Shown here one piece after another: positions 22,632-36,755 of a stretch of 41,478 bases of DNA. The position numbers and the translations under genes were made by a program. How positions within the stretch are numbered: position 1 is the first letter of the stretch; each line of letters starts with the position of its first letter. Below the pieces are notes generated by a model. It was not told the DNA's origin, searched no databases, and worked only from the letters and a program-made list of their open reading frames with translations. Location: contig JAETOJ010000025.1 in the NCBI GenBank assembly GCA_021768085.1, forward strand, positions 1 through 41,478, given 5' to 3'. Source of the stretch: Bacillota bacterium. Its GTDB lineage: Bacteria > Bacillota > Clostridia > Oscillospirales > Oscillospiraceae.

Positions 22632-23933
22632 TCACAGCCCTTTTTTATCCTCGGTGGCGGGGTTGTTCAGCAGCGTTCCGTCCTCGCCGAAGCGGGAGCC
22701 GTGGCAGGGGCAGTCCCAGGAGCGCTCCGCGGCGTTGTAGCGCAGGGCGCAGCCCAGGTGGGGGCAGCGGGGGGCGGTGGGCCGCAGCAGGTTCAGGGCG
22801 GCCTCCCAGCCGTTGACCGCCAACTGGGGCCGCAGGGCGCTGCGGCTGGGCGAGAACAGCTCTGTATAGGGGGTTTCCTTCCCACACACCAGATCCGCCA
22901 GCACCCCGGCGGCGGCCATGGCAGAGGTGGTGCCCCACTTGTTGAAGCCGGTGGCCACGTACAGATCCGGCGTGCGGGCCCCATACCGCCCCACGTAGGG
23001 CGCGCCGTCCAGGGTCATGCAGTCCTGGGCGGCCCAGCGGGCGGTCTCCCGGGCCTGGGGGTAATGGCGGCGGGCGAACGCCTCCAGCTCCCGCCAGCCG
23101 CCTCCGGGCTTCCCCGTGCGGTGGCCCCCGCCGCCCAGCAGGAGCAGGCCCTCTGTGTTCCGGAAGGTGAGCCCCGTTTCTGCCTCGTCCACATACATAC
23201 CGCCCAAGTCCGGGGCGTCCTTTAGGGCCAGCAGATAGGAGCGGTGCTGGTACAGTTTGAGAAAGTACCCGCCGTGCTTGTTGAGGATGGGGAAGTGGGT
23301 GGCGATGATCACCTTCTTCGCCGCGATTGTCCCCCGGCTGGTAACCGCCCGCCCCGGCGCCAGCTCCAGCACCTTGGTGTCCTCAAAAATCCGCAGGGGC
23401 CTGGCGATGGCGGTGGCAAATTGCAGGGGGTGGAACCGGGCCTGCCGGGGCACGCACACCGCCCCCGCCACCGGGAAGGGCAGGGGCGTCTCGTCCACCA
23501 GGCGGGCGGCAAGGCCCAGCCTGTCCAAGGCGGCCAGCTCCCGCTCCAGCTTGTCCCGGCTGTCCGTGGAGTAGACAAAATTGTCCTCCTCCACAAAGCC
23601 GCAGTCCATGGTTTGGCACAGGGCCCGGTAGTCCTCCAGCGCCGTCCGGTTGGCCTCCAGATAGAGGCGGGCCCGCTCCTCCCCGAACTGGCGGATCAGC
23701 TTATGGTAGATCAGGCCGTGCTGGACGGTGAGCTTGGCCGTCATGCCCTTTGTGGTGCTGCCGCAGATCCGATCCGCCTCCACCAGGGCGTAGTCCACCC
23801 CCGCCTGAGCCAGCCGATGGGCGCACAGCAGCCCCGCCAGTCCGCCCCCCACGATGAGCACGTCGGTGCGCAGATCTCCCTCCAGCGGACAGAACCGGGG
23901 CAGCTGGGCGGTCTTTGCCCAGATAGAATCCAT
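22632..23933 (-). CDS. FAD-dependent oxidoreductase with C-terminal Rieske domain
   Basis: ATG 23933 follows GAGGTG at 6-7 bases; an in-frame GTG lies 9 bases earlier. The 433-residue protein has a DAO-type FAD domain (DVLIVGGGLAGLLCAHRLAQAG near residue 25; YVATGFNKWGTTSAMAAAGVLADL near 335). It ends with a Rieske [2Fe-2S] site: CPHLGC and, 17 residues on, CPCHGSRF, in the last 60 residues. This architecture (YhfW-like) is known in Bacillus and Clostridia but the substrate is not established. Electrons may pass from an amine or hydroxy substrate via FAD to the iron-sulfur cluster. It is transcribed toward the clp terminator. Confidence 0.88.
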   Translation of the reverse strand: MDSIWAKTAQLPRFCPLEGDLRTDVLIVGGGLAGLLCAHRLAQAGVDYALVEADRICGSTTKGMTAKLTVQHGLIYHKLIRQFGEERARLYLEANRTALEDYRALCQTMDCGFVEEDNFVYSTDSRDKLERELAALDRLGLAARLVDETPLPFPVAGAVCVPRQARFHPLQFATAIARPLRIFEDTKVLELAPGRAVTSRGTIAAKKVIIATHFPILNKHGGYFLKLYQHRSYLLALKDAPDLGGMYVDEAETGLTFRNTEGLLLLGGGGHRTGKPGGGWRELEAFARRHYPQARETARWAAQDCMTLDGAPYVGRYGARTPDLYVATGFNKWGTTSAMAAAGVLADLVCGKETPYTELFSPSRSALRPQLAVNGWEAALNLLRPTAPRCPHLGCALRYNAAERSWDCPCHGSRFGEDGTLLNNPATEDKKGL

Positions 23934-24032
23934 TTGGATCACCTCACGGAGTTAACGTGCCCCAAAACAGAGCCGTCTATCCCCGCTGCGGCGTTGCCCC
24001 GCCTGTTCAGGCTTTTTTGCGCCTGCGGGCGC

Positions 24033-24611
24033 TTAGCGGTCTGACTTCCCCATCTCTCCCAGCAGGGTCAGATACTGAGCGCCCTGGGCGATGAAGGCCT
24101 GAGCGTCGAACGCGCTGTTTTGGATGGCCGCCTGGACGATGATGCCGTCCGACACCAGCAGGAGCAGCCAAGTGAGAAAGTCCGCGGACAAGTGGGTGCG
24201 CTGGGCAATTTTTTCACTGATGAGCCGCTGGAATTCCCCGTAGCGGCGCACCAGCTTTTCCCGCAGAACCTCGTCCCCCGCCTGGGCCTCGCATAAAAGG
24301 TGCATCCGCAGCCCCGCCGAGGCGACGTCCCGCTCCACCACGTACTTCACCAGCCGCTGGAGGGAGGTGTCCTTTTCCTTGTTCTCCGTCCAGCGGATGA
24401 AGTCGTCCCACTGCTGGCTCAGGTAGCGGTCGGCCAGCTCGAACAGGATCTCGCCTTTGGTCTTGTAGTGGTAATACAGCGTCCCCTTAGACACGCCGGA
24501 CTGTCTGGCGATGTCCGCCAGGGAGATATCCGCCCAGGTTCCGGTCTCCAGCAGAATCTGAGCCGCGTTCAATACCGCTGACTTTACGTCGTCTTTTCTC
24601 GGTGCCGCCAT
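24033..24611 (-). CDS. TetR/AcrR-family regulator
   Basis: ATG 24611 is chosen because GGGGAGG lies 5 bases upstream. The 192-residue product has a canonical TetR N-domain: KSAVLNAAQILLETGTWADISL, then IARQSGVSKGTLYYHYKTKGEIL (recognition helix plus Lys-rich turn). The ligand-binding domain follows, ending WLLLLVSDGIIVQAAIQ. It is divergent from the five-gene GlpA/FGGY/AGPS-like operon. A 22-bp palindrome lies just after that operon's -10 box, so it probably represses the operon until a pathway metabolite binds. The ligand is unknown. Confidence 0.92.
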   Translation of the reverse strand: MAAPRKDDVKSAVLNAAQILLETGTWADISLADIARQSGVSKGTLYYHYKTKGEILFELADRYLSQQWDDFIRWTENKEKDTSLQRLVKYVVERDVASAGLRMHLLCEAQAGDEVLREKLVRRYGEFQRLISEKIAQRTHLSADFLTWLLLLVSDGIIVQAAIQNSAFDAQAFIAQGAQYLTLLGEMGKSDR

Positions 24612-24645
24612 AAAAGCCTCCCCATCCCCCATCAATAATGGGTTT

Positions 24646-24713: not shown

Positions 24714-24742
24714 TTGACAAACACAGGTCTGTTGGATATAAT
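24714..24742 (+). promoter_or_regulatory. Consensus sigma-A promoter of the GlpA/FGGY/AGPS-like operon
   Basis: TTGACA (24714-24719), a 17-base spacer and TATAAT (24737-24742) are a full consensus match. Such a strong promoter needs control, which fits the adjacent operator. Confidence 0.88.
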
Positions 24743-24755
24743 TTTGACAAACAGA

Positions 24756-24777
24756 GTAAGCCGGTCGGCCGACTTAC
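24756..24777. promoter_or_regulatory. 22-bp palindromic TetR operator
   Basis: The left half GTAAGCCGGTC and right half GGCCGACTTAC are inverted repeats with 8 of 11 positions matching; the outer GTAAG/CTTAC arms are perfect. The site lies at about +8 to +29 relative to the expected start, ideal for blocking RNA polymerase. The only nearby regulator is the divergent TetR gene. Confidence 0.75.
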
Positions 24778-24802
24778 TATATATGAGAAGGGAAGCATCG
24801 GC

Positions 24803-26506
24803 ATGGATCTGCGCAAAACGAACAAGAAGCTGGCCAAGCGGTTTGGCGGCGCGGTGCGCGCCGCCCTGTCGGATGGGTGCGTGGTACTGACGGGACAGCT
24901 GCCCACCTGGGCCGAGGTGGTGGAGGCCTGCCAGCTGGCAGCGACAAAATACGGCAACCTCCATGTGGTAAACGATATTGTCTGCGACGAGGCGGCGCCC
25001 CAAAAAATGCGCCTGCCGTCTCTCCGAGACAGCGCGTTGGAAGGGCGGCGGCCCGACGTGCTCATCATCGGCGGCGGCATCTCCGGCGCGTCCATCGCCC
25101 GGGAGCTGTCCAAGTGGAAGCTGGACATCCTGCTGGTGGAGAAGGAGGCCGACCTGGCCCTCCAGGCGTCAGGAAGGAACGACGGGGAGGTGCACCCGGG
25201 GGTGGATCTGTCTAAGGGCTCCCTGAAGCACCACTACATCCGGAAGGGCAACGCCATGTACGACCAGGTGTGCCGGGAGCTGGACGTGCCCTTCCACCGG
25301 GTGGGGCAGTACGTCTGCTTCGACAAGGGCTGGCTGAAGCCCTTCATTGCCCTGTACTGCCTCTGGCGCAGAACCCATGACGGTATTGAGGATACCCGGG
25401 TTATCTCCGGCGCGGAGCTGAAGCGGCGGGAGCCCAACCTGAATCAGGACTTCAAATTCGCGGTGTCAAACCCCTCCTCCGGCTGCGTGTGCCCCTACGG
25501 GCTGACCATCGCCTATGGGGAAAACGCGGTGCAGAACGGCGCCCAGGTGTGGCTGAACACGGCGGTGCTGTCCATGGAGGTGAAGGACGGCGAAATCAAG
25601 AGCGTACATACCAACCGGGGGACAATCTATCCGACGCTGGTGATCAACGCCGCCGGGGTGTTCGCCGAGGACGTGGCCCGGATGGCGGGGGATCGCTTCT
25701 TCTCCATCCATCCCCGCCGGGGCACCAACTCCATTCTGGATCAGAAGGCCGGGGCACGATTTTCCTCCATCGCCTCCATCATGGAGCTGGCCCGCTCCCG
25801 GGGGCATTCCAAAGGGGGCGGCATCCTGCACACCGCCCACGGCAACCTGCTGGTGGGCCCCGACGCGGTGGAGACTTTTGAAAAGGAGAACACGGCCACC
25901 CGCCCCCAGAGCATCGACACCGTATTCGCCAAGCAGGAAAAGACCATGCCCACCCTAAGCAAGGGGGACATCATTACCTACTTCACCGGCGTGCGGGCCC
26001 CCACCTTTGAGGAGGATTTCATCATCGAGAAGGGGCGGAAAACCCATAATATCATCCACTGCGCGGGCATCCAGTCCCCCGGCCTGACCACCGCCCCGGC
26101 GGTGGCGCTGGACGTGGAGAAGATGGCGGTGGAGGAGCTGCGGAAAAAGAAATCTGTGGCCCCCAACGAGGGCTATTCCCCCATCCGCCGCGGCGTGCCT
26201 GTGCTGCGGGAGCTGCCGGACGAGGAGCGGGCGGAGCTAATCCGCAAAAACCCGGACTATGGGGTCATTGTGTGCCGCTGCGAGGAGGTCAGCCGCGGCG
26301 AGATCCTGGACGCCCTGCGCGCTCCCATCTGCGTGCCCACGGTGGACGGGGTGAAGAAGCGGGTGCGGCCAGGGATGGGCCGGTGCCAGGGGGGGTTCTG
26401 TTCGCCGCTGGTGGCAAAGATCATCGCGGAGTTTTTGAACGTCCCGCTGGACGAGGTGAAAAAATCCGCCCCGGAGGCCAACATCACCTTCGGGCGGACA
26501 AAGTGA
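24803..26506 (+). CDS. GlpA-like FAD dehydrogenase with BON-like N-domain
   Basis: ATG 24803 follows AGAAGGGAAG. The 567-residue product has three parts. Residues about 10-60 (VVLTGQLPTWAEVVEACQLAATKYGNLHVVNDI) look like a BON domain, normally found in membrane-associated proteins. A DAO-type FAD domain follows (VLIIGGGISGASIARELSKW near residue 88), as in anaerobic glycerol-3-phosphate dehydrogenase GlpA. The C-terminal BFD-like [2Fe-2S] domain has Cys491, Cys493, Cys528 and Cys533. I infer oxidation of a glycerol-3-phosphate-like substrate with electrons passed to the next protein. The BON fusion is unusual. First gene of the operon. Confidence 0.88.
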   Translation: MDLRKTNKKLAKRFGGAVRAALSDGCVVLTGQLPTWAEVVEACQLAATKYGNLHVVNDIVCDEAAPQKMRLPSLRDSALEGRRPDVLIIGGGISGASIARELSKWKLDILLVEKEADLALQASGRNDGEVHPGVDLSKGSLKHHYIRKGNAMYDQVCRELDVPFHRVGQYVCFDKGWLKPFIALYCLWRRTHDGIEDTRVISGAELKRREPNLNQDFKFAVSNPSSGCVCPYGLTIAYGENAVQNGAQVWLNTAVLSMEVKDGEIKSVHTNRGTIYPTLVINAAGVFAEDVARMAGDRFFSIHPRRGTNSILDQKAGARFSSIASIMELARSRGHSKGGGILHTAHGNLLVGPDAVETFEKENTATRPQSIDTVFAKQEKTMPTLSKGDIITYFTGVRAPTFEEDFIIEKGRKTHNIIHCAGIQSPGLTTAPAVALDVEKMAVEELRKKKSVAPNEGYSPIRRGVPVLRELPDEERAELIRKNPDYGVIVCRCEEVSRGEILDALRAPICVPTVDGVKKRVRPGMGRCQGGFCSPLVAKIIAEFLNVPLDEVKKSAPEANITFGRTK

Positions 26507-26519
26507 GGGGGGAGCAGCC

Positions 26520-27779
26520 ATGCGTGAATACGATACCGTCGTGATCGGCGGCGGCCCCGCCGGACTGGCGGCGGCGCTGTCCGCCCGGGAAAACGGCGCG
26601 AAAACCCTGCTCATCGAGCGGGAGGCCCGCTTAGGCGGCATTTTGAAGCAGTGCATCCACGACGGCTTTGGCCTGGTGCGCTTCCAGGAGAAGCTCACCG
26701 GCCCGGAGTACGCCCAGCGGTTCATCGATCAGGTGGAGCGGGGGGAGATCGACACGTCCACCCTCACCTTCGTCACCCGGCTGGAGCGGACGCAGGCGGG
26801 CTTTGCCGTCACGGTGGTGAACCGGGCGGGGGTGGAGACCATCCTGACCCGCACCCTGGTGCTGGCCACCGGCTGCCGGGAGCGGACGGCCAAGCAGGTG
26901 AGCATACACGGCACCCGCCCCGCCGGTGTGTTCACCGCCGGCACCGCCCAGCACTTCACCAACTTGCTGGGTCAGCTTCCCACCAAGCGGTGCGTCATTC
27001 TGGGCAGTGGGGACATCGGCCTCATTATGGCCCGCCGCCTCACCCTGGAGGGGGCCAAAGTGCTGGGAGTGTACGAGGTCAAGCCCACCCCCTCCGGGCT
27101 GACCCGGAACATCCACCAGTGCCTGCGGGACTACGATATCCCCCTGCACCTGTCCCACACGGTGACCCGGGTGTTGGGGGAGGATCGGCTGACGGCGGTG
27201 GAGGTGGCCCAGGTGGACGAGCGGATGCGGCCCATCCCCGGCACCGAGGAGATTGTGGAGTGTGACGGGCTGATCCTGTCGGTGGGCCTCATCCCGGAGA
27301 ACGAGCTGGCCCAGTCCCTGGGGGTGGAGCTGGATCCCAAAACCAAGGGGCCGGTGTGCAATGGCCAGCTCATGACCAGCGTGGACGGGGTGTTCTCCTG
27401 CGGCAACGCCCTGCACGTCAACGACCTGGTGGACTACGTGTCCGAGAGCGGGGAGCTGGCCGGACACGCCGCCGCCTGCTATGCCCCCGCCCCCCGGCGG
27501 GAGGTGGCGCTGCGCGCCTCCCCGGCGCTGCTCTACGCCGTCCCCCAGCGGCTGGATCTGAACCGGGACAACAGCAAGACCACCCTGTACTTCCGGAGCC
27601 GGGAGGTGCTGGATCGCTGCGTCCTGCGGCTGCGGGTGGACGGGCGGGAGGTATTTTCCAAGCGTTACCCCTTCCTGCGTCCGCCGGAGATGGAGCGGCT
27701 GGACATGGATTTCTCTCAATTTGAGCTGAGCGAGCACTCCAAAATAGAGCTGGATATCGAGGTGACGGGTCATGAGTGA
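26520..27779 (+). CDS. FAD/NAD(P)-dependent oxidoreductase (GlpA-partner type)
   Basis: The 419-residue product begins VVIGGGPAGLAAALSARENG (FAD) with a central NAD motif CVILGSGDIGLIMARRL near residue 160 and a second FAD motif (GVFSCGNALHVNDLVDYVSESG) near 285. The family includes subunits of hydrogen-cyanide synthase, opine and sarcosine oxidases, and clostridial proteins always encoded after GlpA-like dehydrogenases. CKQCIHDGF-type cysteine content is low (one near residue 44, ILKQCIHDG). It likely passes electrons from the GlpA-like protein to NAD(P). GGGGGGAG precedes ATG and its end overlaps the next gene by 8 bases. Confidence 0.87.
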   Translation: MREYDTVVIGGGPAGLAAALSARENGAKTLLIEREARLGGILKQCIHDGFGLVRFQEKLTGPEYAQRFIDQVERGEIDTSTLTFVTRLERTQAGFAVTVVNRAGVETILTRTLVLATGCRERTAKQVSIHGTRPAGVFTAGTAQHFTNLLGQLPTKRCVILGSGDIGLIMARRLTLEGAKVLGVYEVKPTPSGLTRNIHQCLRDYDIPLHLSHTVTRVLGEDRLTAVEVAQVDERMRPIPGTEEIVECDGLILSVGLIPENELAQSLGVELDPKTKGPVCNGQLMTSVDGVFSCGNALHVNDLVDYVSESGELAGHAAACYAPAPRREVALRASPALLYAVPQRLDLNRDNSKTTLYFRSREVLDRCVLRLRVDGREVFSKRYPFLRPPEMERLDMDFSQFELSEHSKIELDIEVTGHE

Positions 27780-28137
27780 GCTGGTTTGCATCGTATGCCC
27801 CCGGGGCTGCACCCTCCGGGTGGAGGAGGAGGGCGAGACCCTTCAGGTGACGGGCAACGGCTGTAAACGGGGGGCGGACTTTGCCCGGTCGGAGCTGACC
27901 GCCCCTATGCGCACCCTGTGCACCACGGTGCGCACCGCCTTTCCGGACGTACCGGTGCTGCCGGTGCGGCTGTCGGCGGAGATCCCCAAGGGGCAGATTT
28001 TCCCCGTGATGGAGGCCATCAACGCCGTGACGGTGGATCAGCCTGTGGACATGGGCGGCGTGATCCTGAATAATGTGCTGGGGCTGGGCGTGGATCTGGT
28101 GGCCGCCAGCGGCCTGCTCCGGCCGGCGGACGGATAG
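27772..28137 (+). CDS. DUF1667 protein (CxxC small subunit)
   Basis: The 121-residue product has four N-terminal cysteines (Cys6, Cys9 and Cys13 in CIVCPRGC, and Cys31 in GNGCKRG) that could bind an iron-sulfur cluster or zinc. The conserved C-terminal part (PVRLSAEIPKGQIFPVMEAIN) is typical of DUF1667. The family is nearly always encoded with GlpA-like and FAD/NAD oxidoreductase genes, as here, and is thought to be a third subunit of that complex. It overlaps the preceding gene by 8 bases. Confidence 0.88.
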   Translation: MSELVCIVCPRGCTLRVEEEGETLQVTGNGCKRGADFARSELTAPMRTLCTTVRTAFPDVPVLPVRLSAEIPKGQIFPVMEAINAVTVDQPVDMGGVILNNVLGLGVDLVAASGLLRPADG

Positions 28138-28147
28138 GGGGCGGCGT

Positions 28148-29707
28148 ATGAAAACACCGCTGATCCTCACCTTCGACGTGGGCACCCAGAGCACCCGGTG
28201 CCTGCTGGTGCGGCCGGACGGCAGCTTCGCGGATCTCTGCCAGGTCAAGCACGATCCGCCCTACCACTCCCGGAACCCGGGCTGGGCGGAGCAGGATCCG
28301 GACTTCTACTACCAGCGGATCTGCGAGACGGGGCGGGCCGTCTGCCAGCGCAGCGAGGGGCTGCTGGGGGACATCGTCGCCGTGGCCCTCACCACCATCC
28401 GGGACACGGTGCTGTGCCTGGATGGAGATAACAGGCCCCTGCGGGACGCCATTTTATGGCTGGACAAACGGCGGGCGCAGTTCAACGACCCGATCCCCCT
28501 CTATAATAAGCTGCTGTTCCGGGCGGTGGGTATGTCCGGCGCGGTGGAAAACATCTACCGCGCCTCCGCCTGCAACTGGATCGCCCAGCGCCAGCCGGAG
28601 CTGTGGGCGCGGACGGCGAAGTACGTCATGCTTCCCACCTACTTAAACTACAAGATGACCGGGGTGCTGGCCGACTGCGCGGCCAACATGATCGGCCATA
28701 TGCCCTTCGACTACAAAAGGCGGCGCTGGCAGGGCCCCTCCGCCCTCACCCGGTGCGTCTACAACATCCCCCAGGAAAAGCTGTGTGAGCTGACCCCCTC
28801 CGGCCAGGTCATCGGGCGGGTCACCCGGGAGTTCTCCGCCGACTCCGGCGTGCCGGAGGGCCTGCCCCTCATCGCCACCGGCTCGGACAAAGGCTGCGAG
28901 ACCCTGGGCCTGTCCGTCATCCAGCCCCGCAAGGCGGCCATCTCCCTGGGCACCACCGCCACCATCCAGCTGGCCCTGGAGCGCTACGTGGAGCCCCAGC
29001 CCTTTATGCCCGCCTACCCGGCGGTGTCCAACCACCTGTATAACCCCGAGATCGAGCTATATCGGGGCTTCTGGCTGGTGTCCTGGTTCCTGCGGGAGTT
29101 CTGTGCCAAGGACTTGGCCCAGGCGAAGGAGCTGGGCTGCTCGCCGGAGGAGCTGCTGGATCGGTACATCGCGGACATACCGCCGGGGTGCGGGGGCCTG
29201 CTGCTCCAGCCCTACTGGACGCCGGGAATCACCACACCCGCCGCCCGGGGGGCCATCGTGGGCCTCACCGACCACCACACCCGCTACCATCTCTACCGGG
29301 CCATTTTAGAGGGCATCGCCTTCGAGCTCTACGACTCGCTGAAACGCATGGAGAAGCGGGCCGGGATCCGGGTGGAGGAGATCTACGTGGGCGGGGGCGG
29401 CGCCCGCAGCAATGTGGCCTGCCAAATCCTGTCCGATCTATTTGGCCTGCCCGTCAAGCGCACCCAGACCCATGAGGTCAGCGCCGTGGGGGCGGCCATG
29501 GCCGCCTTCCTGGCCCAGGGGATTTTTCACGATTACGACGAGGCCATCCGCAGCATGGTTCATGAGGGGGACGCATTCCACCCCGACCCCGACCGACACA
29601 AACTTTATGCGCAGCTGTACCGCGGCGTCTATGCCCGGTTGTATCCCCGGCTGGAGCCGCTGTACCGCAGAATTTCTGAGATTACGAAAAGGAGCGATGT
29701 GCTGTGA
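28148..29707 (+). CDS. FGGY-family carbohydrate/polyol kinase
   Basis: ATG 28148 follows AGGGGG. The 519-residue product has the FGGY ATP/actin fold: LTFDVGTQSTRCLLVRPDG at the start, WAEQDPDFYY near residue 55, TTIRDTVLCLD near 85, ATGSDKGCETLG and AISLGTTATIQLAL in the middle, and YVGGGGARSNVACQILSDLFGLPV near 420. Members phosphorylate glycerol, xylulose, fuculose or related polyols. The 519 residues and the C-terminal domain differ enough from GlpK that the substrate cannot be assigned. Its last codon overlaps the next gene's GTG, so kinase and flavoprotein are coupled. Confidence 0.9.
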   Translation: MKTPLILTFDVGTQSTRCLLVRPDGSFADLCQVKHDPPYHSRNPGWAEQDPDFYYQRICETGRAVCQRSEGLLGDIVAVALTTIRDTVLCLDGDNRPLRDAILWLDKRRAQFNDPIPLYNKLLFRAVGMSGAVENIYRASACNWIAQRQPELWARTAKYVMLPTYLNYKMTGVLADCAANMIGHMPFDYKRRRWQGPSALTRCVYNIPQEKLCELTPSGQVIGRVTREFSADSGVPEGLPLIATGSDKGCETLGLSVIQPRKAAISLGTTATIQLALERYVEPQPFMPAYPAVSNHLYNPEIELYRGFWLVSWFLREFCAKDLAQAKELGCSPEELLDRYIADIPPGCGGLLLQPYWTPGITTPAARGAIVGLTDHHTRYHLYRAILEGIAFELYDSLKRMEKRAGIRVEEIYVGGGGARSNVACQILSDLFGLPVKRTQTHEVSAVGAAMAAFLAQGIFHDYDEAIRSMVHEGDAFHPDPDRHKLYAQLYRGVYARLYPRLEPLYRRISEITKRSDVL

Positions 29708-31455
29708 GCAGCAAACCTTACAAGGGCTTTCGGCCCAACTGGCTGGAGACCCCCGCACCGGAGGGGAGCTACCGCTCCATTTTCCGCTGGGGCGACCCGA
29801 AGTTCTTCAAGCACCCCAAGGAGTCCCTCTACAAGCTGATGAAGGAGTCGTTTAAAATGACGGACGACGACTTCCGGGACTACACCGACGACATCGGCTT
29901 CGATCCGGTGGATCTGTCGGACTATCCTTCCAAGATCGCCCCAAAACACGTGGCAGCGCTGAAGGAGATCGTGGGGGAGGATTTTGTCACCACCGAGGAC
30001 TACCCCCGGCTGGCGGTGGCCTACGGCTGCACCGGCTACGACCTGCTGCGGCTGCGCCACAAGCAGATCGAGAACGTCCCCGACGTGGTGGTGTACCCGG
30101 ACACAGCGGAGCAGGTGGAGCGACTGGTGGACTATGCCGTCCGGCACAAGATCCCCCTGTACGTCTACGGCGGGGGCAGCAGCGTCACCCGGGGGGTGGA
30201 GTGTGTGAAGGGCGGCATCTCCCTGGATATGCGCAAGCGGTTCAACAAGGTGCTCAGCTTCAATGAGACGGATCAGACCGTCACCGTCCAGGCGGGCATC
30301 TCTGGGCCGGATCTGGAGAAAGCCCTCCAAGACGCGCCCAACCGCTTCGGGGCCAAGCGGGCCTACACCTGCGGCCACTTCCCACAGTCCTTTGAGTACA
30401 GCAGCGTGGGCGGCTGGGTGGTGACCCGGGGCGCTGGGCAGAACAGCACCTATTATGGCACCATTGAGGACATCGTGCTGGCCCAGAAGTACGCCACCCC
30501 CATCGGCCGGATCGTCACCAGCCCCTATCCCCGGGAGGCCACCGGCCCCAGCATGAAGCAGATCATGCTGGGTTCCGAGGGCGCCTTCGGCGTGCTCACC
30601 GAGGTGACCCTAAAGGTGTGCCGCTGGATGCCGGAAAATCGAAAGCGGTTCTCCTATATGTTTAAAAACTGGGACATCGCTATGAAGGCCGCCCGGGAGA
30701 TGATGCAGTGTGAGTGCGGGCATTCCTCCGTGTTCCGCCTGTCCGACCCGGAGGAGACCCACCTGATGCTCCGGCTCTACAACGTGGACGACACACCCCT
30801 GGCCCCGCTGCTGGACAAATTCGGCTACAAGGACATGGAGCGGTGTATGTTCCTGGGCTTCACTGACGGGGAAAAGGGCTTCTCCAAAAATGTGGCCAAA
30901 AACATCGGCCGCATCGCCCGCCGCTACGGGGCCATGCCCATGACGGGCTACGTCACCCGGAGCTGGGAGAAGGGCCGCTTCAACGACCCCTATCTCCGGG
31001 ACACCCTGATGGATTTTAGCGTCATCACCGACACCCTGGAGTGCACTGTGAACTGGTCCAACATGGCCCAGGTACACCGGGACGTGCGGGCAGTATGCCA
31101 CGCCCTACCCAACACAGTGGTCACCACCCATATGTCCCACTGCTACCCCCAGGGGGCCAATCTATACTTCATATTCATCACCAAAATGAACGATGCGGCC
31201 GAGTTCAAGCGCTACCACACCACCATTCTGGACGCCATCCAGCGCTCTGGGGCAGCCATCAGTCACCACCACGGCATTGGCAAGATGTTTGCCCCCTGGC
31301 TGGAGGGCTATCTGGGCGAAAAGGAGTACGGCGCAGTGAAGGTACTGAAGCACTATTTCGACCCCGATGGCATGATGAACCCCGGCGGCACCCTGGGTCT
31401 GGATCTGCCCCAGGAGGAGAAAAAATTTCTGAACACCCGCAAGGACTACCGCTGA
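29704..31455 (+). CDS. FAD-linked oxidase of the alkyl-DHAP synthase (AGPS) type
   Basis: The GTG start at 29704 overlaps the kinase TGA; AGGAG lies about 10 bases upstream. The 583-residue protein is a VAO-fold flavoprotein. The FAD pyrophosphate loop is YVYGGGSSV (about 154-162) and TVQAGISGPDLEKAL is near 198. The cap domain ends with a run of three histidines, His521-523, in ISHHHGIGK, which is the signature of alkylglycerone-phosphate synthases. These swap the acyl chain of acyl-DHAP for a fatty alcohol to make ether lipids. No acyl-DHAP acyltransferase is nearby, so it may instead oxidise or cleave a glycerol derivative. No secretion signal is present. Confidence 0.88.
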   Translation: MSSKPYKGFRPNWLETPAPEGSYRSIFRWGDPKFFKHPKESLYKLMKESFKMTDDDFRDYTDDIGFDPVDLSDYPSKIAPKHVAALKEIVGEDFVTTEDYPRLAVAYGCTGYDLLRLRHKQIENVPDVVVYPDTAEQVERLVDYAVRHKIPLYVYGGGSSVTRGVECVKGGISLDMRKRFNKVLSFNETDQTVTVQAGISGPDLEKALQDAPNRFGAKRAYTCGHFPQSFEYSSVGGWVVTRGAGQNSTYYGTIEDIVLAQKYATPIGRIVTSPYPREATGPSMKQIMLGSEGAFGVLTEVTLKVCRWMPENRKRFSYMFKNWDIAMKAAREMMQCECGHSSVFRLSDPEETHLMLRLYNVDDTPLAPLLDKFGYKDMERCMFLGFTDGEKGFSKNVAKNIGRIARRYGAMPMTGYVTRSWEKGRFNDPYLRDTLMDFSVITDTLECTVNWSNMAQVHRDVRAVCHALPNTVVTTHMSHCYPQGANLYFIFITKMNDAAEFKRYHTTILDAIQRSGAAISHHHGIGKMFAPWLEGYLGEKEYGAVKVLKHYFDPDGMMNPGGTLGLDLPQEEKKFLNTRKDYR

Positions 31456-31489: not shown

Positions 31490-31535
31490 AAAAGGCATCG
31501 GGCAGAAAGGATCGCCTTTCTGCCCGATGCCTTTT
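31490..31535 (+). terminator. Strong terminator ending the five-gene operon
   Basis: A 21-bp stem (31490-31510 with 31515-31535) closes a 4-base loop ATCG and ends in CTTTTG. It is perfect along its whole length. Confidence 0.88.
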
Positions 31536-31804: not shown

Positions 31805-33037
31805 CTACGACAAATACTTTTTCTTTATCTTTTCAGCGGTGTATTCCAGCTCTGGGTACACAAATGCTTTGTCAATGCCAATACTCTCCAATTCGTTGAG
31901 AATACAGGACTTGTGCTTTGACTCAATAATGATACTGCAAAACTGATGTTCTAAACTTTCTGGGTCAATTTTTTGTATTTCATCTACAATTGAGAAGCGC
32001 CGCTCAAATGAAACTGCACTATCTTCCGTATAAATGGCAAAGCCATCGGCATCTACTCGTTTTGCTATAGGCTTCTCATAACTCGAAAAGAGACGTTGCA
32101 TTGACTGATATGTAACTGTAAAATTGCGCATAGCTACATTATCATTGTGCTTTGGTTTATAAAAATCTGGAGGTGTGTAGATTGGATATACTGAGTCAAG
32201 CGACTCCCGAGTAGAAACTTCTAATATACGTTGTCTGTTTTCTTCTGTATCTTCCATGCCCACCATCGCCTCATTGAGGCCGTAATGTTTTTGATAATAA
32301 CATATCTTCCCCAGATGATCAAACAATTCATTGGGGTATATCAAAAATATGGCTGATTGGTTTTTAATTCGCTGATTCCAATACTTTGGTTTAGCAAATA
32401 GTAGCCGATAATCTTTGGCTAAGTACAGCTTACTTATGTATTCGTATGCCGATACTCTTGTTCCTTGAAGGAAATCTTCGATTGTAAAATTTTCTATAGA
32501 ATATGGGACATAGCTACTGCTAATGGCCTCAACAATTTTGTTATTGCTATAGGAAAGAAAAGCGTTGCAGCAAGTCACTCTTGCATTTATGGCGCTATTC
32601 TTTTCACACGCAAAATAAAGTGCGATTAGTGGATTCGTTGTAAAGTCCAAAAGGCGAGTTGGCAGTCCATAATGTTGCATTTTTGCCAATAACTCAAAAT
32701 TAGAATGTAAATCTTGAAAAGATTCCGGTCTCAGGGTCATAAACTCATTAACCATTTCATGCTCTGTTGAATCATCGCGAAAATCAGACCTGGCAATACT
32801 TGGTATCAAGTCCCATCTATAATCTGACATCCCCCGGAAAACCATTGTGTCTGAACTTAGTCTGTCAGATTTCTGAGAAGTAAGACATTTAACAACGTCT
32901 AAATACTCAGAAATACTGCTAATTGAAAATGTGAAATGCTGGTAATTCGGAAGGCGATCTGCATCTGGTACAACGAAATGCGAAGGAAAACCGCACGATA
33001 AAGCCTCACCGATTATTAACTTCAAATCAGGTTCCAT
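31805..33037 (-). CDS. FRG-domain protein (AT-rich cargo gene)
   Basis: ATG 33037 follows GGAGG at 6 bases. The 410-residue product has a clear FRG domain: VFRGMSDYRWDLIPSIAR near residue 65, then AKMQHYGLPTRLLDFTTNPLIALYFAC near 112. The Phe-Arg-Gly motif names the family, found in phage-carried and defence-island proteins and predicted to be an ADP-ribosyltransferase-like fold. The remaining 270 residues have no recognised domain. The gene is clearly AT-richer than the chromosome around it, so it was acquired. It lies at the outer end of the prophage beyond the repressor, where cargo and superinfection-exclusion genes usually sit. Confidence 0.85.
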   Translation of the reverse strand: MEPDLKLIIGEALSCGFPSHFVVPDADRLPNYQHFTFSISSISEYLDVVKCLTSQKSDRLSSDTMVFRGMSDYRWDLIPSIARSDFRDDSTEHEMVNEFMTLRPESFQDLHSNFELLAKMQHYGLPTRLLDFTTNPLIALYFACEKNSAINARVTCCNAFLSYSNNKIVEAISSSYVPYSIENFTIEDFLQGTRVSAYEYISKLYLAKDYRLLFAKPKYWNQRIKNQSAIFLIYPNELFDHLGKICYYQKHYGLNEAMVGMEDTEENRQRILEVSTRESLDSVYPIYTPPDFYKPKHNDNVAMRNFTVTYQSMQRLFSSYEKPIAKRVDADGFAIYTEDSAVSFERRFSIVDEIQKIDPESLEHQFCSIIIESKHKSCILNELESIGIDKAFVYPELEYTAEKIKKKYLS

Positions 33038-33089
33038 TTTATGCCTCCACAAACCGGATTTTCTTTGAAGTTTGTGCTTTCTTTGTCAA

Positions 33090-33870: not shown

Positions 33871-35454
33871 TCAGCCCTCTATCTCCGTGCCGTTCTGGAA
33901 GGTGAACACCAGCCGCCCATCGTGGTAGGCCGTGGCTTTCTCAATCACCGCCAGCCAAAGGCCCTCGTCAAATTCGGTGACGGTTTCAGTATACTCGGAA
34001 AGTTCAAACATAAACCCGCCGATGAAGTCCGCCTGTGCCAGCCGCTGGACCTTTTCTTTCTGGAGTGCGTCCAGCTTGGTCTTCGCCGCATCGTACCGGG
34101 CCACATAGCCATTATAGCGTTCGGTGTACTCCTCTTGGCTCTGGGCGCTTCGGGCGTTCTCCCGGATACACCGCTGGGTCAGTTCCGTCACCACCTCGAT
34201 TTCCCGGAGCAATTCGTCCAGTTCCGCATCAAGGGCGGAGCAGTTGGTGAGGTGGTCTTGCATGACCCTGCAATCCTCCAGCAGAGCCTTTTTGCCATCC
34301 AGCAGTTGATTGAATGCCGCCAGAAACCGGGCCTTGATGTCCTCCTCCCTCAGATGGGGCGTCCGGCATTTCCGCTCCCCGGCGAACTTCTCATTGCATT
34401 GCCAGATGGTGCGGCGGTACTTGCTGTTGGAGTGCCAGACCTTGGAGCCGTAAAAGCTGCCGCAGTCACCGCAGACAATGCGGGAGGCGAAGATACTGTT
34501 GCCGCTGTAGCGGTGGCCCAGCCCCTTCCGGCGCGCGAACTCGGCCTGCACCTTGTCAAACTCCTCCGGGTCGATGATGGGCTGGTGGCTCTGCTCGATG
34601 TAATATTGCGGAACCTCACCCTCGTTGATCTTCATTTTCTTGTCCAGGAAGTCGATGGTGAATTTCTTTTGCAGGAGCGCCGCCCCTTTGTACTTCTCAT
34701 TCGTCAGAATGGAGGCCACCGTAGTCGTTCCCCATTTCGACTTCCCAGCCGGAGTGGGGATGCCGTCAGCGGTCAGGGTCTTGGCGATGAGGTAGGGTGT
34801 TTTCCCCGCCATGAAAAGGGCAAAGATGCGGCGGACGATTTTTGCCTCCTCCTCGACCACGACCGGAATGTCATCCGGCCCCTTTTCATAGCCAAGGAAC
34901 TGCTTATATGGGAGGCTGACCTTTCCATCCGCAAATCGCTTGCGCTGGCCCCAGGTGACATTCTCTGAAATGGAGCGGCTCTCCTCCTGGGCCAGCGAGG
35001 ACATGATGGTCAGCAGCAGTTCGCCCTTGGAGTCGAAGGTCCAGATGTTTTCTTTCTCAAAGTAGACCTCGATGTGGTTCTCTTTCAGCTTGCGGATGGT
35101 GGAAAGGCTGTCCACCGTGTTCCGGGCAAAGCGGCTCACCGACTTGGTGACGATGAGGTCTATCTTCCCGGCGAGGGCATCGGAGATCATCTGGTTGAAT
35201 CCATCCCGGTGGCGTGTGTTGGTCGCCGAAATGCCCTCGTCCGTGTAAACTGACACAAATTCCCATTCAGGGTTGTTTTGGATGTACCGGGTATAATAGT
35301 CGATTTGCGCCTCGTAACTGGTGAACTGCTCATCGCTGTCGGTGGAGACACGGGCATACCCCGCCACCCGGCGTTTCCCAGCCGCCACCACAGGAATCTG
35401 GCTGTGCAGATTGATGGTGGCCGGAATGACAGTTACTGCTCTTGCTGCTGGCAT
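33871..35454 (-). CDS. Large serine recombinase A
   Basis: The 527-residue product has the resolvase catalytic domain (VAGYARVSTDSDEQ, nucleophile Ser37; then SVSRFARNTVDSL), a Recombinase domain (FLGYEKGPDDIPVVVEEEAKIVRRIFALFMAGKTPYLIAKTL), a zinc beta-ribbon (CGDCGSFYG and later CNEKFAGERKC), a coiled-coil region (SALDAELDELLREIEVVTELTQRC) and a C-terminal strand segment. This is the complete set of an integrase that joins attP to attB by a Ser-phosphodiester. ATG 35454 has only a weak ribosome site, since the gene overlaps the end of recombinase B by 22 bases and is probably translated by coupling. It is oriented toward the repressor gene. Confidence 0.9.
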   Translation of the reverse strand: MPAARAVTVIPATINLHSQIPVVAAGKRRVAGYARVSTDSDEQFTSYEAQIDYYTRYIQNNPEWEFVSVYTDEGISATNTRHRDGFNQMISDALAGKIDLIVTKSVSRFARNTVDSLSTIRKLKENHIEVYFEKENIWTFDSKGELLLTIMSSLAQEESRSISENVTWGQRKRFADGKVSLPYKQFLGYEKGPDDIPVVVEEEAKIVRRIFALFMAGKTPYLIAKTLTADGIPTPAGKSKWGTTTVASILTNEKYKGAALLQKKFTIDFLDKKMKINEGEVPQYYIEQSHQPIIDPEEFDKVQAEFARRKGLGHRYSGNSIFASRIVCGDCGSFYGSKVWHSNSKYRRTIWQCNEKFAGERKCRTPHLREEDIKARFLAAFNQLLDGKKALLEDCRVMQDHLTNCSALDAELDELLREIEVVTELTQRCIRENARSAQSQEEYTERYNGYVARYDAAKTKLDALQKEKVQRLAQADFIGGFMFELSEYTETVTEFDEGLWLAVIEKATAYHDGRLVFTFQNGTEIEG

Positions 35455-36755
35455 GATCTCATCGCCCGTCCTTTCTTCGCAAATTCTCTGGCGGCGGCTT
35501 TCATCTCCGGGGTCCAGCTTTCCGCTCTGGAACGGTCTGCCCATCGTTTAACGGTTTGTGTGCCGTCCTTGAACAGAAATACCAGAGTATTGTTCCCCTC
35601 GGCTCGGATAGCCGTTATTTTATCGTGGAGGACCTTTGCGTCAAAGGCATCCAGCCCCAGCACCTCCGCCGCCGCTTTTTCAAGCGTCCCCTCCGGTATC
35701 TGCTTGGAGGAACAAGCCGCTTTGCCGTAGATGTTGAAGGTGCTGCAAATCCACACTGGGCCGATGCGGGTCACTTTTCGCCGGTAGCCCTTGCCGCAGG
35801 TCCCGCAGACGATCATCGAAGTGAAGGGATACTTGGCGGGGCCACGCTTGGTCTTGTTGTGCTTGGCGGACCGCCGTGCCATCTCATCTTGCACCGCTTG
35901 GTAGTCCTCCATGCTGACGATGGCCTCATGTGTGTTCTCCGCATGGTACATGGGCAGCTCACCACGGTTGGGCAGCGTCTTTTTTGTGATGTGGTTCTCC
36001 CGAAACGTAGTCTGGAGGAGCAGGTTCCCGGTGTAGGAGTAGTTCCCCAGCACCTTCCGAACGCTGGAGCGGCACCAGGCATGGCCGTTGCGGGAGGTCT
36101 TGCCTTGGGCATTCAGCTTTTTCATGATGGCTTCGACACCCATGCCGGAGAGGTAATCGGCGAAGATGCTCCGCACGATCTCGGCCTCCTCCGGCTTGAC
36201 GATGTAAACGCCATCCTCGTAGCGATAGCCCAGCACCTGCCCCGACCAGGGCTTGCCGTCCTCGAAGTTTTTTCTGATACGCCACTTCTGATTTTCGCTG
36301 GCAGAAAGGCTCTCCTCCTGGGCGTAGGATGCCAGAATGGTCAGCATCAGCTCACCGTCCGCGCTCATGGAGTGGATGTTCTGTTCCTCAAAATAGACAT
36401 CCACTCCCATCGATTTCAACTCCCGGACGGTCTGGAGCAGCACCACCGTGTTCCTGGCGAACCGTGAGATCGACTTCGTGATGATGAGGTCGATGTTCCC
36501 GGCGCGGCACTCGGCCAGCAGCCGCTGGAAGTTCTCCCGGTTTTCCTTCGTGCCGGTCAGGGCCTCGTCAGCGTACACCCCGCAGTAGAGCCAGCCGGGG
36601 TGGTTCTGGATGAGGCCGCTGTAGTAGCTGACCTGGGCCGAGAGAGAGTGGAGCATGGCGTCCTTGCCGGAGGACACTCTGGCGTAGGCCGCGACCTTTT
36701 TGGCCTTGGGCTGGGCGGGGATATTCGGCCCTATCCGTTGAATGGTTCTTTCCAA
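35433..36755 (-). CDS. Large serine recombinase B
   Basis: The 440-residue product has the catalytic domain (VAAYARVSSGKDAM with Ser28; SISRFARNTVVLL), the Recombinase domain (VLGYRYEDGVYIVKPEEAEIVRSIFADYLSGMG) and a zinc ribbon (CGTCGKGYRRK and later CSTFNIYGKAAC). It lacks the long coiled coil of recombinase A and is about 90 residues shorter. AAAGGAGG precedes ATG. Its end overlaps recombinase A by 22 bases. The pair appears to be one transcription unit with the small genes upstream. Tandem, dissimilar serine recombinases occur on some clostridial elements, where both may be needed. Confidence 0.9.
   Translation of the reverse strand: MERTIQRIGPNIPAQPKAKKVAAYARVSSGKDAMLHSLSAQVSYYSGLIQNHPGWLYCGVYADEALTGTKENRENFQRLLAECRAGNIDLIITKSISRFARNTVVLLQTVRELKSMGVDVYFEEQNIHSMSADGELMLTILASYAQEESLSASENQKWRIRKNFEDGKPWSGQVLGYRYEDGVYIVKPEEAEIVRSIFADYLSGMGVEAIMKKLNAQGKTSRNGHAWCRSSVRKVLGNYSYTGNLLLQTTFRENHITKKTLPNRGELPMYHAENTHEAIVSMEDYQAVQDEMARRSAKHNKTKRGPAKYPFTSMIVCGTCGKGYRRKVTRIGPVWICSTFNIYGKAACSSKQIPEGTLEKAAAEVLGLDAFDAKVLHDKITAIRAEGNNTLVFLFKDGTQTVKRWADRSRAESWTPEMKAAAREFAKKGRAMRSCQQQEQ

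Follow-up and report, generated by a model that had tools for sequence, protein, structure and literature searches.

We analysed a 41,478-nucleotide stretch of contig JAETOJ010000025.1 (assembly GCA_021768085.1; the window) from a Bacillota bacterium of the family Oscillospiraceae. A sequence-only reading had singled out five of its genes, at 24714-31455, as an inducible operon for the breakdown of a glycerol derivative, ending in a flavoprotein of the AGPS (alkyl-dihydroxyacetone phosphate synthase) type. Our follow-up concerns this operon and its immediate surroundings, which contain the following features:

24033-24635, minus strand: TetR-family regulator, divergent from the operon (Pfam TetR_N, 2.6e-9)
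24714-24742, plus strand: sigma-70-type promoter, TTGACA-17-TATAAT (12/12 consensus match)
24755-24778, no strand: palindrome AGTAAGCCGGTCGGCCGACTTACT, candidate TetR operator, just 3' of the -10 (sequence scan and motif search)
24803-26506, plus strand: GlpA-like FAD dehydrogenase (DAO + Fer2_BFD) with an N-terminal BON-like domain at about residues 1-62 (Pfam, models)
26520-27779, plus strand: FAD/NAD oxidoreductase partner (Pfam Pyr_redox_2; 47% identical to the canonical partner of the same genome)
27772-28137, plus strand: DUF1667 protein (PF07892, 5.6e-28; 48% identical to the canonical copy)
28148-29707, plus strand: FGGY kinase of its own clade, ATG start (Pfam FGGY_N/C, tree, curated cut-offs)
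29704-31455, plus strand: AGPS-type flavoprotein, GTG start (Pfam FAD_binding_4 + FAD-oxidase_C, Foldseek, residues)
31490-31535, plus strand: likely terminator, a perfect 21-bp inverted repeat with a 4-base loop and a 3' arm ending in TTTT (sequence)

The operon consists of five plus-strand open reading frames, each in frame with a stop codon, whose junctions are, in order, a 13-base gap, an 8-base overlap, a 10-base gap and a 4-base overlap. Reading frames, junctions and promoter bear out the earlier description of five tightly coupled genes behind a perfect promoter; the 10-base gap and the overlaps stand, while the gap given there as 14 bases measures 13. The five family assignments agree with Pfam and with AGPS structure matches. 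Promoter-like sites occur at 9 per 12 kb, against 3.3 in shuffles. The inverted repeat lies shortly 3' of the last stop and is absent from the list of the automated scan that gave the promoter. Together with the divergent TetR gene, the operator-like palindrome, the BON-like domain and a canonical glp operon elsewhere in the genome, it goes beyond what the sequence-only reading had described.

A scan of species genomes returned 172 relatives of the AGPS-like protein, of which we kept the best 80 (69-98% identical). Where their titles name a group, these come from Clostridia families, Erysipelotrichaceae, Bacilli and one Acholeplasmataceae. Carriers of the operon include cultured bacteria, among them Extibacter muris DSM 28560 and Eubacterium callanderi. 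In 62 of the 80 loci the flanks reached 5.3 kb or more on the upstream side and 2 kb or more on the downstream side (long-flank loci), and same-strand partners there were GlpA in 62, FAD/NAD in 62, DUF1667 in 61 and FGGY (above 40% identity) in 56. The sequence-only reading had proposed a check of whether the genes stay together, and they are not separate in most relatives: the complete five-gene set is present in 55 of the 62. Gene order was window-like in 43 loci, FGGY followed AGPS in 12, six had no FGGY and one no DUF1667. Within the window's own family the AGPS gene is rare, occurring in 7 of 250 genomes (the window's included) and in none of four other genomes of the genus. The operon is a conserved unit that is patchily spread. 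Besides the five genes and TetR, no listed non-antisense cluster of neighbours recurred in more than five of the 80 loci, the list covering clusters from at least three loci, few of them annotated.

Individual loci show variants of the layout. A transposase-domain gene (L044, 8358-9836, minus strand) separates the FGGY kinase and AGPS genes in one, and in another (L003, 1158-1829) no intact FGGY gene lies between FAD/NAD and AGPS, a 91% identical kinase fragment being found on a different contig (contig C64 of G398), which may reflect an assembly break or decay. In a single divergent locus (L076, 11836-14414), the genes immediately 3' of AGPS are DegV and FakA-like (fatty-acid kinase), and the FGGY orthologue lies elsewhere in the genome. 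Loci L175-L178 have GlpA, FAD/NAD and AGPS, with DUF1667 in three of the four, and their fetched stretches contain no FGGY; in L175, L176 and L177 the gene after AGPS is long and similar, that of L175 being ABC ATPase + FtsX.

The TetR homologue is divergent in 35 of the 62 long-flank loci and on the same strand in two. A motif search upstream of GlpA found AGTCGGT-N5..7-ACCGACT, with up to three mismatches, in 47 of 73 regions where 1.1 would be expected from base shuffles, an excess that is inflated because some of these loci also supplied the consensus. The motif starts 5-13 bases past the best predicted -10 in 40 of 45 listed rows, a placement that suits a repressor site, and the window copy starts at 24759 with three mismatches. 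The TetR protein probably binds this palindrome, and the divergent TetR gene and conserved candidate operator downstream of the -10 support the inducibility that had been proposed for the operon. A loose palindrome search, locus by locus, was noisy and has been superseded by the motif search.

The canonical glp operon of the same genome (L087; contig C88 of G000) holds GlpA, FAD/NAD, DUF1667 and kinase genes together, and its kinase scores 733 bits for GlpK (cut-off 590). Between window and canonical copies identity is 39% for GlpA, 47% for FAD/NAD, 48% for DUF1667 and 26% for the kinase. Since the canonical operon handles glycerol, glycerol is an unlikely substrate of the window operon. Judging from these sequences, the best explanation is that the window operon arose by duplication and divergence of the anaerobic glycerol operon and includes an added AGPS-type enzyme. 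The proposed catabolism of a glycerol derivative is supported.

The window kinase scores below the curated cut-offs of both TIGR01311 (GlpK; 154.7 bits, cut-off 590.35) and TIGR01312 (XylB; 225.3 bits, cut-off 380.25). It lacks the MHG motif of XylB-like paralogues, and immediately after a conserved R and D it carries D and K where GlpK carries E and Q. A 31-kinase tree places it in a clade of 11 rows (100/99) that is separate from the GlpK and XylB-like ones. Besides the window kinase, this clade contains those of five window-type loci, three from clusters of AGPS-like and GlpD-like genes (described below) and two orthologues found in genomes where the window-type locus itself has none; its sister group is made up of the E. 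gilvus, Ilyobacter and S. clavuligerus kinases. With an E limit of 1e-90, the kinase was found in 12 of 398 genomes (the window's included), adjoining an AGPS-like gene or sitting one gene off in 11 and lying beside a GlpD-like gene in the twelfth (G130). By raw tally, 10 of the 12 also belong to the 20 genomes with AGPS (Fisher p 5e-13, or 8e-12 without the window's genome), although the genomes are related and these values are no clean probability. Three genomes with AGPS/GlpD clusters (G310, G166, G279) also have a true GlpK elsewhere. In G400 and G405, whose kinases are remote, the neighbouring genes did not help to name a substrate. The operon singles out an FGGY kinase clade outside the curated GlpK and XylB families.

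The GlpA-like protein has the GlpA-type architecture, with DAO and BFD [2Fe-2S] domains and FAD/NAD and DUF1667 partners, and scores below the NCBIfam cut-offs (TIGR03377, 131.5 bits against 552.8; PRK11101, 102.8 bits against 425). Its residues H131, K337, R398 and S425 align to H51, K258, R320 and S348 of M. pneumoniae GlpO, which we take to be glycerol-3-phosphate (G3P) site residues. They are invariant in 29 of 29 aligned members, and their equivalents are also kept in canonical GlpA. The protein is 567 residues long, against 482 for the canonical copy, with about 80 additional residues at the N-terminus. These are modelled as helix-strand-strand-helix-strand (pLDDT 88.6), presumably the topology of the BON fold, and Foldseek ranks 1-3 are DolP, DolP and OsmY (E 0.02-0.034, none below 0.001, weak if taken alone). 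The title of PDB entry 7a2d links DolP to phospholipid binding. The BON-like domain, which canonical GlpA does not have, may serve a membrane-lipid role.

When the AGPS-like protein was compared with solved structures by phmmer, it reached 238 bits to 2uuu and 75 to the best D-lactate dehydrogenase. Its AlphaFold model (mean pLDDT 79) retrieved AGPS/ADPS structures at all of Foldseek ranks 1-37 (TM 0.66-0.76 by query length), with D-lactate dehydrogenase next. Dictyostelium AGPS residues R352, R447 and Y508, important for catalysis according to a figure legend (PMC3509576, Figure 5), correspond to R345, R432 and Y488 of the window protein; these three and HHH521-523 do not vary across the 36 sequences that were aligned out of 81 available. 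The source genome holds no second AGPS match. The AGPS-like and GlpA-like enzymes so appear, from their residues, to retain the marks of a G3P or dihydroxyacetone phosphate (DHAP) core.

We consider it likely that the operon encodes a catabolic pathway for a glycerol substituted on C1, lipid and water-soluble forms taken jointly. The substrates we favour are 1-O-alkylglycerols, the core of ether lipids, at chances that fall just short of even; a glycerol ether or other glycerol derivative had been the suggestion of the sequence-only reading. We infer the order and direction of the steps, the substrate, the TetR ligand and the operator binding as follows. The FGGY kinase would phosphorylate C3 of the alkylglycerol. 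The GlpA-like protein, with its FAD/NAD and DUF1667 partners, would then oxidise C2 to a ketone, passing electrons to NAD(P) and yielding 1-O-alkyl-DHAP; the BON-like domain would perhaps keep this complex at the membrane. Finally, the AGPS-type enzyme would form the kind of C1-flavin adduct that has been proposed for alkyl-DHAP synthase, expel the alkyl chain as an alcohol and, with water, release DHAP. TetR would repress the operon until a ligand, perhaps lipidic, arrives.

In AGPS chemistry, as given in the available part of PMC3509576, a DHAP ester loses a C1 proton, forms an adduct with N5 of the oxidised flavin, loses its acyl group and is attacked by an alcohol. Because this chemistry needs a C2 ketone, the kinase and the dehydrogenase would act before AGPS, and we have revised the earlier order, in which the AGPS step came second, so that the GlpA-like oxidation precedes it. 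The same flavin adduct, run on alkyl-DHAP with water, would give a last step without net electrons. Relatives of EtfAB and of the CCG protein, searched for by tblastn at 1e-10, were found in none of the 80 loci, which fits a non-redox last step.

Other bacteria appear to fill the same jobs with swapped parts. In seven distant Bacillota loci (L127, L129, L130, L131, L179, L180, L181) an AGPS-like gene stands with a GlpD-like gene, the AGPS-like proteins being 31-35% identical to the window's where blastp scored and that of L127 reaching 273 bits by profile. A kinase 40-44% identical to the window's is present in all of these except L131, and a GntR protein with a FadR_C domain adjoins in three (L127, L130, L131). 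Two actinomycete plasmids carry, in order, glpD, TetR, an AGPS-like gene and a YegS/DAGK-type lipid kinase. In L080, which has no FGGY gene, a YegS/DAGK gene begins 3 bases after AGPS; tblastn with this gene at 1e-4 revealed no second case among the loci searched. On two betaproteobacterial megaplasmids a GlpK-like kinase and GlpD lie upstream of AGPS, and in Paracoccus jeotgali a GlpD-AGPS-FGGY trio is followed by an aldehyde dehydrogenase, two enoyl-CoA hydratase-type genes, TetR and an alcohol dehydrogenase. The lipid kinases, the FadR_C domains and the alcohol and aldehyde enzymes point to a fatty chain.

Several observations weigh against a pathway for alkylglycerols, beginning with its enzymes. 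AGPS is described solely as a synthase in the literature examined (PMC3509576, in the part available), and the proposal presumes that the enzyme can also work in the breaking direction. Pfam BON scores the window protein at 15.8 bits, under the gathering cut-off of 27, and matches four of 29 GlpA-like members at E up to 1 (best 0.0025). The AGPS-like proteins of the FadR group have HQH instead of HHH. The kinase is not nearby in six of the 62 long-flank loci; a genome-wide search for nine kinase-less loci gave an orthologue elsewhere for three, a 91% fragment for one and only FGGY proteins of 23-30% identity for five. For G009, G159, G184 and G306, where GlpA, FAD/NAD and AGPS occur without FGGY in the stretch, no kinase was found genome-wide at E 1e-90. 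Kinase absence is real in some genomes, and part of the assemblies is incomplete.

The genomic contexts add to this. Among 21 plasmid contexts, picked by hand from 96 records with a match, seven have a kinase and a G3P dehydrogenase, six a kinase only, one GlpD only and seven neither. Three of the six kinase-only contexts have xylulokinases, with sugar or other ABC transporters, and one has EtfAB; a CCG protein follows the AGPS-like gene in Bacillota locus L104, and an ABC transporter precedes the P. jeotgali trio. In P. aeruginosa, the cluster PA3026-PA3024 encodes an oxidoreductase, a GlpD homologue and an FGGY kinase, with the YegS-like kinase gene PA3023 adjacent, and its deletion gave no growth phenotype on glycerol or BIOLOG plates (PMC8151288, in the portion available).

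In a rival reading, the substrate would be a water-soluble C1-substituted glycerol or a sugar alcohol, handled by the same logic of kinase, oxidation and cleavage with no lipid chain, which we regard as unlikely but worth serious consideration. MFS_2 transporter genes were found in 12 of the 80 loci, by a profile built from eight of them. In six of these loci they adjoin the operon: in L006, L007, L010 and L011 they come after TetR, on its strand, while in L029 and L060 AGPS is their immediate neighbour on the 5' side; the remainder lie farther away. The adjoining genes may serve the pathway for uptake, and three of them are placed as follows:

L006, 1485-4094, minus strand: MFS_2 gene
L029, 11767-13191, plus strand: MFS_2 gene
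L060, 11761-13185, plus strand: MFS_2 gene

The window itself contains no MFS_2 gene by tblastn at 1e-3. The name of the family refers to sugar transport, but some of its members, human MFSD2A among them, carry lysolipids. The presence of these genes beside the operon led us to weigh the lipid substrate lower and a water-soluble one higher. Further support for the latter comes from clusters in Roseibium and Paracoccus contaminans, which combine an AGPS-like gene with a xylulokinase, a sugar ABC transporter and a glycerol dehydrogenase, and in Mesorhizobium, with an AGPS-like gene, a xylulokinase and an ABC transporter. In E. gilvus and S. clavuligerus, whose kinases form the sister group of the window clade together with that of Ilyobacter, FGGY and AGPS-like genes lie near the gene for a G3P-responsive antiterminator.

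Against a water-soluble substrate stands the position of the window protein in a 33-row AGPS tree (L103 left out for its wrong reading frame; L102 and L132, one protein, counted once). The proteins of the sugar-type plasmid clusters group in a single clade (99/99), and 11 of its 12 members have lost the equivalent of R447; the window protein retains it, and of the 19 rows counted outside that clade 18 keep it. Among the contexts examined, where P. aeruginosa is not among the sequences, only R447-retaining members have a lipid kinase or a FadR_C regulator beside them. As a divider between lipid and sugar clusters, R447 mostly holds but is broken by P. jeotgali, which lies in the sugar-type clade and has no R447 equivalent, and by Novosphingobium, which lies inside that clade yet has R at this position. 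Microbacterium, with GlpK and GlpD, also lies inside the sugar-type clade, and L132, L154, L157 and L159 keep R447 but have no trio; like the two exceptions, these count against the lipid substrate.

Ether-lipid biosynthesis, as suggested for P. aeruginosa PA3026-PA3024, would have the kinase make G3P, the dehydrogenase DHAP and AGPS alkyl-DHAP. Despite the known direction of AGPS (PMC3509576, in part) and the published proposal (PMC8151288, in part), we judge it improbable for the window operon. Its five genes include no acyl-DHAP-forming acyltransferase and no alkyl-DHAP reductase (genome and neighbours were not searched for one), the complete canonical glp operon already provides G3P and DHAP, and a TetR-type operator and patchy presence suit catabolism better. 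We give very little weight to the idea that the AGPS-like protein is a redox enzyme, such as a 2-hydroxy-acid or polyol-phosphate dehydrogenase passing electrons to the GlpA complex; D-lactate dehydrogenase does share its FAD_binding_4/FAD-oxidase_C membership, and some relatives lie beside EtfAB or CCG genes, but the nearest structures are AGPS, the AGPS residues are complete and the 80 loci are free of EtfAB and CCG relatives. On the Ilyobacter polytropus plasmid (L153, 4854-11082), AGPS-like, FGGY kinase, MFS transporter and EtfAB genes follow one another, a probable redox relative. That the locus is a spare glycerol operon is scarcely credible even though four of its five genes are paralogous to the canonical one, given the low GlpK score of its kinase (154.7 bits, cut-off 590.35), the separate clade and the replacement of GlpK E and Q by D and K.

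Among neighbouring genes, we considered a DAO gene with a C-terminal Rieske domain beside TetR (22632-23942, minus strand) as a member of the operon and dropped it, since it is a divergent neighbour in one of 62 loci (L001). An FRG-domain protein (PF08867, 2.3e-24; 31805-33052, minus strand) is encoded just 3' of the operon. A large serine recombinase with Resolvase, Recombinase and zinc-ribbon domains (33871-35544, minus strand) lies nearby and may bear on the patchy spread.

The operon is real and conserved, and is a variant of a known but unexplained kind of cluster. Judged by titles and the openings of abstracts, the open-licence literature yielded neither an account of the five-gene set nor one of an anaerobic pathway for alkylglycerols. 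The statement of the sequence-only reading that no described pathway joins the five genes holds to that extent, but the homologous-looking cluster PA3026-PA3024 has been published (PMC8151288, in part). Like the canonical glp operon of its own genome, the window operon combines GlpA, FAD/NAD and DUF1667 with a kinase of FGGY fold; the canonical operon differs in its true GlpK and in having no BON-like domain. With eukaryotic AGPS/ADPS the AGPS-like protein shares the fold, R352, R447, Y508 and the HHH motif at about 25% identity; it is bacterial, its operon includes a kinase and a dehydrogenase, and the synthase direction fits it less well.

In mycobacteria, Rv2251 is presumably AGPS-like. The adjacent genes Rv2249c (glpD1), Rv2250c (regulator), Rv2251 (flavoprotein) and Rv2252 (diacylglycerol kinase), compared here by their names in one table of PMC4564863, resemble the window in setting G3P dehydrogenase, regulator, flavoprotein and kinase side by side. 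They differ in having a lipid kinase where the window has FGGY; work on Rv2252 as a diacylglycerol kinase is cited in the available part of PMC3229680. The P. aeruginosa cluster, likened by its published description, also has in one operon an FGGY kinase, a G3P dehydrogenase and, as its AGPS-like member, a CH-OH oxidoreductase that its authors connect with alkylglycerone phosphate, but with a GlpD homologue in place of GlpA/FAD-NAD/DUF1667 and the AraC regulator GliR where the window has TetR. GliR activates it together with phospholipase C PA3464, and the authors propose a route from glycerol to alkylglycerone phosphate (all from the accessible part of PMC8151288). We put forward, tentatively and at rather less than even chances, that an alkylglycerol pathway of the kind described here operates in gut Clostridia and that variants of it, in which kinase, dehydrogenase and regulator have been exchanged, occur in other Bacillota, in actinomycetes and in proteobacteria; such a pathway would explain the GliR regulon. 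If so, this published and unexplained cluster would gain a testable function, and AGPS would be seen working in the breaking direction.

Gut bacteria should encounter alkyl ether lipids from food, the host and other microbes, and strict anaerobes cannot use O2. If correct, our proposal would provide an anaerobic alkylglycerol route. In the part of PMC7911779 available, AGMO is called the sole known alkylglycerol-cleaving enzyme and needs O2 and tetrahydrobiopterin; the net result of the proposed pathway would be the same, cleavage of the 1-O-alkyl bond, reached by other chemistry.

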